From: Verrucomicrobiales bacterium
GTDB lineage: Bacteria > Verrucomicrobiota > Verrucomicrobiia > Limisphaerales > CANJXF01
DNA length: 64,000 nt
Direction of reading: 5' to 3'
NCBI GenBank assembly: GCA_947478865.1
Contig: CANJXF010000018.1
Span: 1-64,000 of the forward strand
The translations under genes and the position numbers were made by a program. Within the stretch, counting starts at the first letter, position 1. Each line of letters starts with the position of its first letter. Of the stretch, positions 34,494-43,852 are shown in pieces. The notes beneath the pieces were generated by a model, which saw only the letters and a list, made by a program, of their open reading frames with translations, searched no databases and was not told the origin of the DNA.

Positions 34494-35983
34494 TTACCCC
34501 GCCTCGGCATAAACACCCGCATCGCGCTCGGGGTAGCTCTCGAAGACGTGCTCGAAGAGGGCGGAGCACTTCTGCTCGTAAAGGGGTTTGTCGTAGGCGC
34601 GGGGAAGGCCAGTGTCGAGGGTGTCCTCGATGGCGAGCTTGAGTTGGGAACGCGCGGTGGATTTCTGCCGCCAGTTGAGGACAAGCAGTTGCTTGAGCCG
34701 GGTCAGGAGTTCGCGGGCGACTTTCTTCACCTCGGCGCGCTCGGGCTCGCTCAACTCAGGTGCCGGGCGCGTGAGGATGTCGAAGATGACCAACTGTTCC
34801 TCGGTCATGTTTTCGCGGACGTGGCGTTGCTGCTCTTCGCTCAGGTTGCGGCTCAATTTCACCAACTCCTCGAACAGCTCTTCGATGTTCCGGCTGCCGG
34901 CGTTGTAGCTCTCAATCAACTCCTCGAACTTCTCGGCGAAGTCGGCGCGGGTTTTGTTCAGGTGAATCAGCTTTTCCAGTTGGGCGCGGATGGCGGCTTT
35001 CAGGACTTCGAGGTCGGTGTTCTTGTGCTTGGACTCTTTGAACTTTGCCGCGAGCGCGCCGAAATCAATCTTCGAGAGGTCCATCACCGGGGCGGGCTTG
35101 GCAGGCATGTCCACGCCTGTGATGGAGGCATCGAGCAGCTTGCTGATGTCGCCCATGACCGCCGTGATGTCCGCCGGATTGGGATTGAGCTTGGCGCGGA
35201 TGGCGTCGGCGATGGCGGTAAGCGTGGCGACACGACCAGAAAACTCCAACGCCGCCGGGTCGGGCTTCACTGCGCTGTAGAGCGTGTTGACGATGCGCTC
35301 GTGGCCTATGAACTCGCGGCGCAACGGGTCGGGTGAGATGAGCGCGTCCACGGCGTCGGCGAGTTTCTGCAAGCGTTGCATACTCCCAACGGCAAGTTGC
35401 TCGATGGCTGGGAGAATCACCTGGCGCGTGGCGCAGAAGGTCGTCGCCGCGTCCACGGCCTTCCGTAAATCCGCGACGAGCTTCTGCTTGTCCTTCACCG
35501 GGTTCTTGCCGTCCTTGCCTGCGCCGTAGATGGCCAGTGCCTTTTCCAGCGAGGCGAACACGTTCGCGTAATCCACGATCATGCCGCTGTGCTTGCCGGG
35601 GAACACGCGATTCGCCCGGGCGATGGTCTGCATCAGGGTGTGATTCCGCATCGGCTTGTCCAGATACACCGTAGAACAACTCGGCGCGTCGAAGCCCGTC
35701 AGCCACATGGCGCACAGGAACACGATTCGTAACGGGTCGTCTGAATCCTTAAACTTCTCGTCCAGCGCCTCTTCATTCATCCGCTTGCGATGCGGCACGA
35801 TGTCGAGGCCGTGCTTCTTCATTTGCTCGATCTCGTTCTGGCCGGGCGACACGATCAGCGCCATGTCGGTTGTCGTGAGCACATCCAGACGTGCGGACAA
35901 TTCAGCTTTCTTTTCCGCCGTGAGGTCGTAGCGCCCCATTTGCTTCTTGGCCACCGCAATTTCCATCGCCCCGACGCGGCGTT
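34494..35983 (-). pseudogene. hsdR: hsdR 3' part (type I restriction subunit R)
   Basis: C-terminal half of a type I restriction ATPase. Starting near 35966 the sequence MEIAVAKKQMGRYDLTAEKK leads into DMALIVSPGQNEIEQMKKHG, then the second helicase domain: LRIVFLCAMWLTGFDAPSCS (motif V region) and MQTIARANRVFPGK (motif VI). A long helical C-terminal region runs to the natural-looking end at 34494. Frames upstream of about 35983 are not homologous. It is separated from the middle of the gene by a plus-strand gene of 1.7 kb, and about 25-30 residues of the family are missing at the break, so it cannot make a complete HsdR. Confidence 0.88.
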
Positions 35984-36030
35984 GAGGAGCGGCTTGACAT
36001 GAAGCTGGATTGTTGCAAAGAGAACGTGCA

Positions 36031-37671
36031 ATGAATTCAGTTCGCTCCATGATTGTGTTCGTCGCCTTGGCCGGCTTCGTAGCGTGCCGGTCTTCTGCGG
36101 AAGCAAGCCCGCAACCCCCGCTCCAACTCGTGCTTCCGGTCGGCGACCGACCCGCCCGTCGCCTCATTGAATCCACGTTTGGCAATTATCTCGACCGCTT
36201 CTACAATGTGAAGCCCACCATTGTCGGCAGTGCCATTAAAGCGGGCAGCTACGTCGTGCTGGGAACTCCTGAAACGAATCCCTTGCTGAAGCAGCTAATC
36301 CGGGATGGCCTCAAGCTCACTTCGAAACAAATCGGCGACGAAGGTTTTCAAATCATCACTCACGAAAGCGGGCCATACCGATACGTGATCATTTACGGGA
36401 AGACCCCGCGCGCCTTGAAACACGGTTGCCAGGAACTGATCTTTTATCATTTGCGGGCGACACGGGAGGGCCTCACGGTGGACTGGCCGCTGGACTTGGT
36501 GAAGATTCCCGAGTTTCCGTACCGTGGAATTTACATGCTTCCGTGCTGGTCGGCCCATGATTCCATCGAATCATGGGAGCGGGTCCTGCGGTTTAATTCC
36601 GAGCTGACGTTGAATCGTAATTGGTTCTGGCTGGATGGTTTTCCCGTCGCCGGCCATACGGGTGAATACACCAACACCCCGCTCGCCGACGAAAAGCGCG
36701 TGCAACGCCTGATTGATCTGGTGAATGACGAGGCCATGAAGTTTTACATCGGCGGCGGTTGGATGACCTGGCATCACAAGAAGGCGGTGGGCCACGACAT
36801 CAAAAAGGGCACGGACTACTACCTGGGCTATTTGAAGACGTTCAAGCGCGTCGGCGGTTTCTACTTCGAGCCAACTGGCGAACCGTGGAACGACGGGCGC
36901 GGGGACGAGAGCAAGGCGTGGCTGGCCGAGGTCGAAGGCTTTCAAAACCTGATCCGAACCCTCCTCAAAAAAGATCCCGACCTCGAAATCGCCCTCGCGA
37001 TTGGAAGCTGGAACAACCCCGAGTATCTCCAGCGCATGGCGACCCTGGATTCCAAACACGTCTTTTGGTGGTGGTGCTGGGGCGACCCGATTCGGAACCA
37101 GGCGCTGGATCGTTTTCCAAACGTCCTGCGCTGGCACAATCAGTTCAAGCAGTCGCCGACGCCCGACGAAACGCACGGCTCGCGCGAGCCGCCCATGCCC
37201 GCCGAACGTAAACTCACCGGTCTGGCGACCAGCTATGATCCAGCGGGCGGCTTTGGCAGCCCGTGGCACAATGCTTCGCACCCGAAGTTTCTGGCCGCTG
37301 ACCTGATTTTTGGCGGCACGACCAAGCCGGAGAATTTTGATCCCCACACGCTCCCTTACTTCTACCTGCAGTACTTTTTCCGGGAACGTTGCTGGAATCT
37401 GAACCTCACGACCGGGGAATTCGAGGCACGCCTGCAACGCCGCCTATTCGACGCCGACGCACCCGCCGACGCCGGCAAACACTATGCAAATCTTTCCCGC
37501 CTCGTCCTCTGGCGTTACGACGACATGAAGCCGAAGCTAAAACCCGGCGCTGAAGAACTGGCGACCCTTCGAGCCTTCATGGATTCCACAAGCCAGCGAC
37601 CTTGGACTTCCCGAATGATGGACACCTTGCGGCACATGGAGGATGCGTTGGCGCGCTTGGAAGGAAAGTGA
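36031..37671 (+). CDS. Secreted glycoside-hydrolase-like protein inserted in hsdR
   Basis: 546 aa from the ATG at 36031. The N-terminus (MIVFVALAGFVACRSSAEA) is a signal peptide, possibly of lipoprotein type. Residues 30-145 look like the N-terminal alpha/beta domain often placed before glycosidase barrels (GH20b/GH67N-like: GSYVVLGTPETNPLLKQLI ... YGKTPRALKHGCQELIFYHL). A probable TIM-barrel follows (FPYRGIYMLPCW, LNRNWFWLDGF, GGFYFEPTGEPWNDGRGDES, FWWWCWGDP). The Glu-Pro-Trp and Asp residues are candidate active-site positions, but the family was not identified. It runs opposite to all surrounding restriction genes and has intact coding, so it seems functional. Confidence 0.7.
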   Translation: MNSVRSMIVFVALAGFVACRSSAEASPQPPLQLVLPVGDRPARRLIESTFGNYLDRFYNVKPTIVGSAIKAGSYVVLGTPETNPLLKQLIRDGLKLTSKQIGDEGFQIITHESGPYRYVIIYGKTPRALKHGCQELIFYHLRATREGLTVDWPLDLVKIPEFPYRGIYMLPCWSAHDSIESWERVLRFNSELTLNRNWFWLDGFPVAGHTGEYTNTPLADEKRVQRLIDLVNDEAMKFYIGGGWMTWHHKKAVGHDIKKGTDYYLGYLKTFKRVGGFYFEPTGEPWNDGRGDESKAWLAEVEGFQNLIRTLLKKDPDLEIALAIGSWNNPEYLQRMATLDSKHVFWWWCWGDPIRNQALDRFPNVLRWHNQFKQSPTPDETHGSREPPMPAERKLTGLATSYDPAGGFGSPWHNASHPKFLAADLIFGGTTKPENFDPHTLPYFYLQYFFRERCWNLNLTTGEFEARLQRRLFDADAPADAGKHYANLSRLVLWRYDDMKPKLKPGAEELATLRAFMDSTSQRPWTSRMMDTLRHMEDALARLEGK

Positions 37672-38191
37672 GACGGCAGGGGATTCTGCCGGGGCGGCGT
37701 TTCACACGTGGGACGCCGGGTGGGGTTCGCCTTGCCGACGAAGCCGCGCCCGAGGAAATGCCGCACGATGTCCTGCGCCACCGTTTCCAGCCGGTCGTCG
37801 CGCGTGAGGATGTGGTATTGCCGGCTCAACTCCCGTTCGAGCTTCGCTTCCTGTTCGGGGTCAAGTTCCGCCGCCTCGATGAGGTTGTAGATGTCCTCGT
37901 TCAGGTCCGGGTTCACGAGCTGCAACTCCGGCGTGCGGTTCTCGTAGAACAGCGGCACGGTCGCGCCGTCCTCGACCGATTGCTGGAAGTCGTAGATGGA
38001 GACGTAATCGCCGAACACGTCCTTGGTCCGCTCCTCGCCGGCGATGAGCGGTGTGCCGGTGAAGGCGAGGAACAGCGCCTTGGGCAACGCCGCGCGCATG
38101 TTCAGCGCCAGCGTATCGTATTGGCTGCGGTGCGCCTCGTCCGTGAGCACGATCACGTCGGGCCGGTCGCATAACACGGGCATCACGCCTT

Positions 38192-38306
38192 CGGCCGGAG
38201 CGCGGCCTTCAGGCCGCTTCACCGTGGAATCGTGCGTGGCGTTCGATAGATCAGAGACGGTCGTGCTGGCGGACATTGAAGCGGGCTGAAGCCCGCGCTC
38301 CGGCTG
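38192..38306. repeat. REPIN-like palindromic pair inside hsdR
   Basis: Two inverted arms, 38192-38220 and 38278-38306, match at 26 of 29 positions. Each arm contains its own hairpin (GCGGCCTTCAGGCCGC in the left, GCGGGCTGAAGCCCGC in the right). It interrupts HsdR between HKFQ and MPVLCDRPD; the inserted roughly 40 residues keep the frame open. This is the architecture of REPINs mobilised in trans by RAYT transposases; no RAYT is in the window. Confidence 0.8.
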
Positions 38307-38805
38307 GAACTTGTGGATCAGCGTGAACACGTAGCGATGATTCCCGCGCAGCAACTCCCGCAGATGCGCGCCGCTCTCGGCATGGCACTGTTCGCCCTCG
38401 GCTTCACTCACCGCGCCGGTGGCCTTGAAGGTCTTGGCGATCTGGTCGTCCAGCTCCACGCGGTCGGTCACGACCACGAACGTCCAGTTGCCCGCCACCT
38501 TGCGCAGCACCTTCTGCGCGAAGAACACCATCGAGAAACTCTTGCCGCTGCCCTGCGTCTGCCAGAACACACCGCCGCGACCGTGCCCCAGCTTGCGCGC
38601 GGCGAGCATTGAGGCGATGGCGTTGTTCACGCCGAGGAACTGGTGATTCTGCCCGATGATTTTCACCAGCCCGGCCTTGTGCTCCGAGAACAGCGTGAAA
38701 TTCTCCACCAGGTCGAGCAGCCGCGTCCGGTCGCACGTGCCGCGCAGCATCACCTCCAGCGCCACCCGGCGCGGCTCGTCCTCGCGCTCGATGCATTGAA
38801 CGCCA

Positions 38806-38818
38806 GTCCGGCTCGGAC
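38806..38818. repeat. Small palindrome at an hsdR frameshift
   Basis: GTCCG, GCT, CGGAC. The HsdR reading changes frame exactly here: WERFFE is in one frame and IEREDEPRR, which should follow almost at once, is in another. Confidence 0.6.
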
Positions 38819-38998
38819 CTCGAAGAACCGCTCCCAATCCGCCGTGAGCGAGCCGACGCGGCTGTCCGTGCCGTTCGAGGCGATGAGCAGCGCGTTGAAC
38901 CAAAAGAGCTGCGGAATCTCCGCCTTGTAGTGCGTCAGGTTCTCGTCGAACGCCGCGCGCGCGGGCACGCCGGGCTTCTTCAACTCGATCACCACCAG

Positions 38999-39016
38999 CC
39001 CCGACAGCAGTCGGGG
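38999..39016. repeat. 18 bp palindrome at an hsdR frameshift
   Basis: CCCCGAC AGCA GTCGGGG, a perfect 7 bp stem. It separates RPDLVGFVN from LVVIELKK, which are normally joined by about three residues, and moves the second into another frame. Confidence 0.7.
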
Positions 39017-39052
39017 TTGACGAAGCCGACCAAATCCGGCCGGCAGGGGTTC

Positions 39053-39327
39053 GGAGTCTGATTGAAAACTGCGAGTGGTTCTGTTTTCGGGGAAAAGGCC
39101 GGATGGCGAGGCGCGACGAAGAAACATACCCGCAACGGTCTGTGACCGAGGAGCAGCGAAGCCAGACGGTCTTTTGCGCGAAAACCCTCCGGGCAGCGGG
39201 TCTTTTGCCTTGGGCCGGCGTTGGCTCGGTCGGCACAGCCCGCTGCGGGGATGCTCCGGCCAAGCCGCCTTGTCCCCAGCCAAAATCCCTCGCCGCAGAA
39301 CCCCTCGCAGCTTTTCAATCAGACTCC
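39053..39327. mobile_element. 275 bp MITE-like element in hsdR
   Basis: Terminal inverted repeats: left GGAGTCTGATTGAAAA then CTGCGAG (39053-39075), right the reverse complement at 39304-39327 with one extra base. 23 of 24 positions pair. The interior has no homology to HsdR and codes for nothing recognisable. It splits SQFSVTGAL from CRPDLVGFVN, two pieces of one conserved HsdR block. No clear target duplication was found by eye. Confidence 0.8.
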
Positions 39328-39424
39328 CAAGCGCGCCGGTGACGCTGAACTGGCTGACCAGCAGGAAATCATTGTTCGCCGGCTGCTCCCAATCAATCAC
39401 CTGCACCCGGACAGTGGTCTGTCC

Positions 39425-39523
39425 TCCCTTGGTAGGGCGTGCTGTCCCCAGCGCGCCGCGATTGCCCGTGCGGCTCGCACCCTCTCCGCCTCGACCGGGG
39501 AGAGGGCCGGGGTGAGGTGTCGA
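39425..39523. repeat. 99 bp in-frame palindromic insert in hsdR
   Basis: Adds 33 codons (TPHPGPLPGRGGEG ...) between MERD and GQTTVRVQVIDWE. It contains a hairpin with 8 bp stem CCCTCTCC/GGAGAGGG (plus strand about 39480-39507) of the common CTCACCCCGGCCCTCTCCC type, followed by a GTAGGGCGTGCTGTCC block that looks like a dispersed repeat. Confidence 0.65.
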
Positions 39524-39738
39524 ATCTCTCTCCATCACGGAAACGGGAATCCCTTCTTTCAACAACCGATACACCTCGCGGTTCGCCGCTTCCAGGCTCA
39601 TAGCCGAACGGTCGCGGGTCAATTCATCCACGGCGGCGGTGATGGCCTCGGGCGGCAGGGCGGGATTCGACCGCTCCAACGCCGTAGCCGCAGACCGGGC
39701 AAAGTTGATGCGCGTGAGAATCGCGCCCCTCTCGGTCC

Positions 39739-42268
<2,530 letters not shown>

Positions 42269-42276
<8 letters not shown>

Positions 42277-43852
42277 CGTCAGAGCTTTCACTGAGGTCCA
42301 TCGGGCGGATCACGGCTTCTACGTAATCGATCTCTTCTTTTGTCAGCCCGTATTTCGTGTAAAGGTCTTTATCCGTCCACACCCGATCCCACGTCTGAAC
42401 TGGAACCCACTTGTAAGTGGAGCGGATAGCGTCTTGGGTGATCTTACGAAGGGAGACAAGAAATCGAAGGAACTTAGTGGTGTAGTAGGATTGAATGCTC
42501 CGTGCCTTCGTTTTAGAGCCTACATGAAAGAACATGAAGGAACCGGTGCAAACAGAGGGCGATGGTGCAACCCAAGGTTTGCCAAGCACCATGTCCGGCA
42601 CCATCCCGCCACCGGATCCAGCCTTAGGGACAAATACCTTCCAAGTTTCGATCAAGTGATGGTTTCTCTGAACCTGTTTAGCGGTAACGTAGCCAATGCC
42701 GCGTTTACCACGCTGCGCGTAATAAACTGGTATGTCGCCGGACCTCTGCTGTTCGCGGAAGTCTGCGAAGTTAGAAGCCCACTTGAATGGCTCAACTCCT
42801 GTGAGGATTTCGATGACTGATGCCTCTTTCTTTGAGAGAACCTTGTGAAGAATCTTTACGGCACGAAGATCACGGACGAAAACATCGAACTCGTCCAGTG
42901 TGCGAAGAGCATCCGTAGATACTCCCGCACGCGTTGTTGTCACCTTAGTCTCACCCTTATGAGCAGAGTCCCAAAGGAAATAAGATATACCGCCTTTCAC
43001 CTCGACACCGGGAAACACCTCGCTAGACACGGGAAAATCCACGAGCTCGCGCAACTTGGCATCTGCGAACATTCGCGCACGATATTCATCTAAACCGTGC
43101 CCACCAGCAAGCCAGCGGGACGGCGTTACCATGCAGACATATCGCGGTTCCAGGCGTAATGCCTGCTCTACGAATAGGTGGTAGATTGATGAGTCAAATC
43201 CACCACCACCTCCAGTCATCTGATACGGGGGATTCCCAAGAATTACGTCGAATTGCATATTTTCTCCGAATATCTCGGTCAGCCGAGTCTTGATGTTGTG
43301 CGTGTGAATGAACGCGTAAGCGTGGTTCTCAAGTCCTGCCTCACGGTCGAAGATTGCTTTTGGCGCTCCACAGAACTCACAGTTCGTGTCGCCCCATGTG
43401 TGCTCCATGCGCTGGAACCAGATATTTCCATCGTCGCTGGCGAAGCCTTTGGCAATCGAGTGTTCACCTTGGGCGTGCTTAGAGCAATAGACGCTGCGCC
43501 GTGCCAGTAGGCTAGTAAGGTGCGTGATGGCGATACCGAACACCTGCTTGGTGAGAATGTGGTTCACGCGCTTTTCCAAGTTCGGAATTTCCTTTTCCAA
43601 TCCATTGGTTAGTCGGGTGGTGATTTCGCGCAGGAACACGCCGGACTTAGTAAAGGGGTCCAGGAACTTCACCGACTTGTCCGCCCAGATGTTTGCGCCC
43701 TTGTGGTTTGCCGCCCAAGCCTCGGCCAGCGTGTCCAGCATCCGGTTGGCGAACTCCGGCGGGGTGAACACCTCGTCGTTCGAGAGGTTCGCGATGCAGG
43801 TCAGCACGTCCGGGTTGCGACCGCGCAAGGTGAAGTTGGCTTGAGTGGTCAT
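42269..43852 (-). CDS. Eco57I-like adenine-N6 DNA methyltransferase
   Basis: 527 aa. The AdoMet-binding part has EVFTPPEFANRMLDTL and motif I LDPFTKSGVFL (64-74). The catalytic motif IV is FDVILGNPPYQMTGGGGG (NPPY at 207-210), the signature of gamma/Eco57I-type N6-adenine methylases. Cys pairs (NCEFCGAP) suggest a zinc ribbon between them. The C-terminal half is likely the target-recognition domain (ASNFADFREQQRSGDIPVYY). Its ATG overlaps the TGA of the upstream small methylase by four bases and its stop overlaps the helicase start, so the three genes form one operon. Confidence 0.88.

Follow-up and report, generated by a model that had tools for sequence, protein, structure and literature searches.

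A fossil MITE-like element in a decayed hsdR gene carries a conserved double-hairpin core that outlasts its terminal repeats

Judged by sequence comparison, the insert in the hsdR gene of this Verrucomicrobiales bacterium is very probably a fossil MITE that has a conserved core and was mobilised in trans by an IS5/IS1031-like transposase, a judgement that does not extend to any RNA role of the core. It is a MITE-like element that is ordinary in its movement and unusual in its conservation, in that the core outlasts the ends. The usual view is that a MITE is a deleted insertion sequence (IS) with an irrelevant interior. Here, conservation lies in the interior, and the putative transposase-binding ends are what can be replaced, so that the benefit of a core to a gene-less element becomes testable.

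An earlier note on the window (the whole 64-kb stretch of DNA that was analysed) placed the element at 39053-39327 (275 bp). The element is real, and its limits need a trim of one base on each side. Comparison with copies in the genome of a relative, G130, that bear intact TNA target duplications sets the limits at GAG...CTC, and the true element therefore spans 39054..39326 (273 bp, GAGTCTG...CAGACTC; GAGTCTGATTGAAAACT...TCAATCAGACTC). The longer stretch starts with GGAGTCTGATTGAAAACTGCGAG and finishes with the complement of GGAGTCTGATTGAAAACTGCGAG plus one extra base. The near-perfect 24 bp inverted ends described in the note are borne out, with identity at 16/16 of the outermost positions and at 23/24 overall, with one inserted base. 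These ends form the sole inverted 16-mer pair spaced 200-400 bp in the window, and no such pair occurs in 20 shuffled windows. From the TNA found in relatives, we read the left flank TCG (39051..39053, plus strand) as a decayed target duplication that was probably TCA originally, and the right flank CCA (39327..39329, plus strand) as a putative decayed copy of the same duplication. With these decayed TCG/CCA flanks and a diverged core, the window copy is a fossil.

Between the flanks lie a left terminal arm (39054..39090, plus strand), whose outer ~16 bp are similar to the ends of IS5/IS1031-like insertion sequences; hairpin 1 (39091..39177, plus strand), with the GA strand on top (90.2 bits with our structure model R1, and covariation); a 22-nt linker (39178..39199) with a small CCC-TCC-GGG hairpin; hairpin 2 (39200..39288, minus strand), an inverted relative of hairpin 1 with its GA strand at the bottom (R1, 42.7 bits); and a right terminal arm (39289..39326, minus strand), the inverted repeat of the left arm. 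The linker spacing is near-constant among double-hairpin elements, as is the whole geometry (about 38+88+22+88+38), and the arrangement is palindromic from end to end.

The earlier reading as a non-autonomous MITE is supported by the distribution of copies, and the element is neither single nor alone in its ends. Its own genome holds 2 copies, the further one 84% identical to the window element, and matches occur in 114/320 genomes of the order, where full-length copies are typically 272-276 bp long and 72-84% identical. Moreover, G130 contains at least 105 near-identical copies, counted as left ends that match a 49-base pattern with no more than 2 mismatches (most are exact); the reversed pattern gave no match in the same genome. 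In the 20 G130 copies examined the flanks are entirely different from copy to copy, and identical 3-bp TNA duplications border 19 of them (TTA 9, TAA 9, TGA 1), usually in a C-TNA-G context. The copies are relatively depleted from genes, since a 300-nt open frame is missing at 6/20 empty sites, compared with 8% of control positions within the same flanks. In G130 the element is a recently active MITE, and its mobility is well supported. We also observed other core elements in G130 (L093 1278-1472, L090 1039-1125) that lie no more than a few hundred bases from burst copies, at least one of them with a different end class.

At 273 bp the element is well below 500 bp, lacks a transposase gene, has terminal inverted repeats and exists in multiple dispersed copies; the target duplication is seen in its relatives (TNA in 19/20 G130 copies), its own having decayed. 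In these respects it resembles the bacterial MITEs NEMIS, RUP, ERIC, Nezha, Chunjie and QMITE, which are gene-less, shorter than 300 bp and bounded by terminal inverted repeats, and which also share target duplication, strong folding and mobilisation in trans by an IS (PMC10969869, PMC3733652). Unlike them, the window family has a covarying double-hairpin core that is conserved across classes and phyla, is joined to about a dozen terminal repeats and, as far as tested, is not IS-derived. Searches with the element and the core consensus gave no match in plasmid and phage collections, nor did an exact 28-base pattern in IMG/VR.

The mobilising transposase, unknown in the earlier note, can be named to the IS5 family, probably the IS1031-like subgroup, through shared 15-17 bp ends and the TNA duplication; the family is assigned by domain and the subgroup by ends and target rather than by phylogeny. 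The note proposed looking for a full-length element with like ends and a transposase, and IS5-family, IS1031-like elements are indeed found across the order. The sole intact DUF4096 + DDE_Tnp_1 transposase of this kind found in G130 (PF13340+PF01609) lies within a 949-bp element with the ends GAGCCTGTCCGAAAA and is flanked by TNA, as TGA on the left and TAA on the right; the MITE copies of this genome end in GAGCGTGTCCGAAAATT. Related transposases were found in 115/320 genomes of the order. About two thirds of the best 30 loci order-wide are elements of 904-966 bp with GAGCCTGTCTGAAAA-like (GAG..TGTCTGAAAA-type) ends and TNA flanks, and several loci have identical left and right flanks, e.g. 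TTA/TTA and TAA/TAA. Thus, the same terminal type and 3-bp TNA duplication are present in the MITE and the autonomous IS. TNA targets, 3-bp repeats and 17-bp ends such as GAACCTGTCTAGTATCT characterise the IS1031 subgroup within the IS5 family (PMC12016507). Members such as ISLrh (PMC12016507) share with our family GARCCTGTCT-type ends and the 3-bp TNA duplication, and the matching autonomous elements encode the DUF4096+DDE_Tnp_1 transposase. Unlike them, the window element carries neither a transposase nor IS-internal sequence and has only the outer ~16 bp in common.

We therefore propose, from the shared ends and target, that an IS5-family, IS1031-like DDE transposase mobilised the MITE in trans. 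The enzyme would have recognised the ~16-bp GAG(C/T)CTG(T/A)(C/T)TGAAAA ends, and insertion at a TNA site would have duplicated 3 bp, a reaction that we infer from comparison of the copies. In the element's own genome the related IS (L098) contains a stop and has lost its frame, and so does not count as a live mobiliser. G130 offers at least 105 fresh copies together with an intact candidate mobiliser.

The interior of the element consists of two ~88-nt hairpins in opposite orientation, 22 nt apart. In a first set of 36 sequences, 94.5% of cells in the proposed stem are paired, and both sides have changed in 156 cells (double-change cells), compared with 39.6 in shuffled data. A second set of 49 hairpins comes from loci that had no part in building the model and that lie mostly in further orders of the class, in further classes of the phylum or in a different phylum. 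Here, in an alignment that is fitted to the model and so leans towards the proposed stem, 92.1% of cells are paired, compared with 30-43% when the partner is slid, and 374 double-change cells are found against 113 shuffled. Three successive internal loops of the stem are tandem GA opposite GA (G.A/A.G mismatches), present in 92-100% of the first set and in 37, 39 and 29 of the 49 hairpins of the second. In the single or double base pairs between these loops both partners change together, from C-G to G-C and from G-C to A-T. Without selection for the fold, such a combination of fixed mismatches and covarying pairs would be difficult to account for. The core thus supplies an unusual nucleic-acid motif that covaries very strongly in nature: three tandem G.A steps alternating with one or two Watson-Crick pairs.

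No Rfam family scored above chance in 38800-39600, and among open-licence papers we found no publication on MITEs in Verrucomicrobia or on tandem G.A hairpins in bacterial repeats that describes this core. REP/REPIN sequences with their RAYT transposases are likewise multicopy hairpins, often in inverted pairs (PMC3733652, PMC3116915). They are marked by a GTAG-type tag and a hairpin of 20-40 nt, whereas the hairpins here are of 88 nt, the core consensus lacks the tag and the family has IS-type ends with a TNA duplication. In some elements of the order and class (L131, L139, L142, L149) both hairpins score almost equally with the model, which suggests descent from an inverted pair that was nearly symmetric.

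The core extends well beyond the order. Hits to R1 were obtained in at least 84/384 genomes of the class (a lower bound, as 11 candidates were scored per genome), in 19/289 genomes drawn across the phylum, including other classes, and in 2/7 genomes from the phylum of the MAG Gemmatimonadetes bacterium DeMMO4_6. The same core is found with about a dozen different terminal repeats, at a similar distance from the ends, and total length is nearly constant across the end classes, at 270-280 bp or, with a single hairpin, about 160 bp. The end classes are GAGCCTGTCTGAAAA (TNA), GGGTCCGTGCAAAAATAAATTCC (TNA), CTAG-TGTCGTGT (4-bp CTAG), TA-GACCGATTGCC, GAACCCATCACATAAATAGG, GTGTGCTGTCATCCAAATAGC, GGAGCCGCGCAAAAATTA, TA-GAACCTATCCC and others. 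A single genome, G245 (L099-L108), combines this core with at least four end classes, among them a variant in which the loop of the second hairpin has diverged. Among the PF01609 loci of G245, G270, G319 and G130 we found no mobiliser for ends of other classes (GGGTC.., TAGACC.., CTAG-TGTCG..).

Cores are on average 0.81 identical within the GAG class and 0.79-0.87 identical from one class to another, and the corresponding values for the arms are 0.87 within GAG and 0.36-0.63 between classes; the loci were picked by core similarity, so the high core identity is partly a sampling effect, and the divergence of the ends is not. Modular exchange of ends is a likely reading: the core, with its two inverted hairpins and their periodic tandem G.A mismatches, would have persisted through changes of terminal repeat that presumably matched the element to different transposases. 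The competing account is that of an ordinary MITE left by internal deletion of an IS, the remaining interior sequence having no meaning. The size, TIRs and TSD of the element are right and a matching IS exists in the same order. However, no trace of the R1 hairpin was found in 32 related IS loci (0/32), such that the MITE shares only ~16 terminal bases with its presumed mobiliser. Moreover, cores from different end classes resemble each other as closely as cores of one class do, which is not so for the ends, and the core shows strong compensatory change. Origin by internal deletion of an IS, usual for MITEs and not strictly required of them, is thus not what is seen here; this account is largely refuted and we consider it very unlikely. 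With the core as the defining part, we see an evenly balanced chance that the elements form a large, ancient superfamily of gene-less mobile elements, in which a conserved fold whose tandem G.A pairs recur periodically, and which some factor specifically recognises, has repeatedly gained new terminal repeats and been passed between transposase lineages across the phylum and beyond.

Pairing bias in the stem bears on what the core may do. Among the non-Watson-Crick cells on the GA strand of the second set G.U exceeds A.C (43 vs 18 outside one G.U-dominated pair, p = 0.002), in hits whose selection and alignment relied on a structure model that may itself favour G.U; in the first set the excess is small (22 vs 16). 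The excess speaks for a fold of the GA strand itself, whether in RNA or in one strand of DNA, rather than for a symmetric cruciform, which is disfavoured as the selected form. Each strand of a double-hairpin element, read 5' to 3', meets its own GA hairpin first, and a transcript from either side would therefore begin with a GA hairpin. Transcription from either side might in this way provide an orientation-independent binding or processing site for a host factor, although the single-hairpin elements, which lack the two-sided symmetry, count against such a role. We tentatively suggest that the core acts through a strand-specific fold on the GA strand, probably as RNA, that is bound or cut by a host factor.

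Help in transposition at the level of DNA ranks close behind. Under this somewhat less probable reading, hairpins or cruciforms in single-stranded or supercoiled DNA would aid transposition, replication or end pairing. The near-constant geometry and end-to-end palindromy would suit such a device, as would the DNA fold of 39053-39327, which is more stable than that of shuffled sequences (z-score -6.7). The preference for G.U over A.C on the GA strand would not be expected if both strands of a cruciform mattered equally, but lagging-strand ssDNA would still be compatible with it. A third proposal, that a structured RNA gene (riboswitch-like or a small RNA) was captured as transposon cargo, could draw on the covarying stem, the conserved unpaired GA positions and the one-strand G.U preference. 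We regard it as improbable, given that the inverted pair puts one GA hairpin on each strand, that there is no Rfam match, that the elements are multicopy and scattered, and that the window copy is decaying inside a pseudogene.

The element sits within the HSDR_N domain of the type I restriction subunit hsdR, on the minus strand. The ORF that spans it (38750..39679, minus strand) carries the interrupted HSDR_N of the decayed hsdR and runs through the element without a stop, and the HsdR frame is lost. HSDR_N is matched in two stretches of this ORF, best downstream of the element, in agreement with the earlier claim that the interior is unrelated to HsdR. That the two HsdR blocks are otherwise contiguous, as was also claimed, is roughly true, except that the joined flanks show compensating frameshifts, with RPDLVGFVN in a different frame from VTGAL and VVIELKKPG. 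hsdR therefore decayed independently of the element. Passage of an ORF through the insert might recall the palindromic elements of Rickettsia (RPE), which are palindromic inserts inside ORFs; such an insert would here be in frame and translated within HsdR. The window element is, unlike an RPE, out of frame with the host gene and has terminal repeats and a target duplication, and the gene has other frameshifts. Such a reading is hardly credible and is refuted for the window copy; a coding function of the element is likewise rejected, as the frame is not kept.

hsdR is also split downstream, into a helicase part (37515-39263) and a C-terminal part (34494-36185). These parts of the minus-strand gene are separated by a plus-strand ORF of 553 aa (36010-37671) that is unrelated to hsdR, has no Pfam match and marks a second split site. 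Upstream of the element, the HsdR frame holds an apparent further in-frame insert at 39445-39530 (peptide TPHPGPLPGRGGEG), and the DNA GGGGAGAGGGCCGGGGTGAGG of this candidate insert occurs once in the window against 0.01 expected. Lastly, at 39739-43852 (minus strand) a T5orf172/ResIII protein adjoins an Eco57I-type methylase, forming a split type IIG-like restriction pair to which PADLOC gave type IIG/II matches, and relatives of the methylase are found in many phyla.
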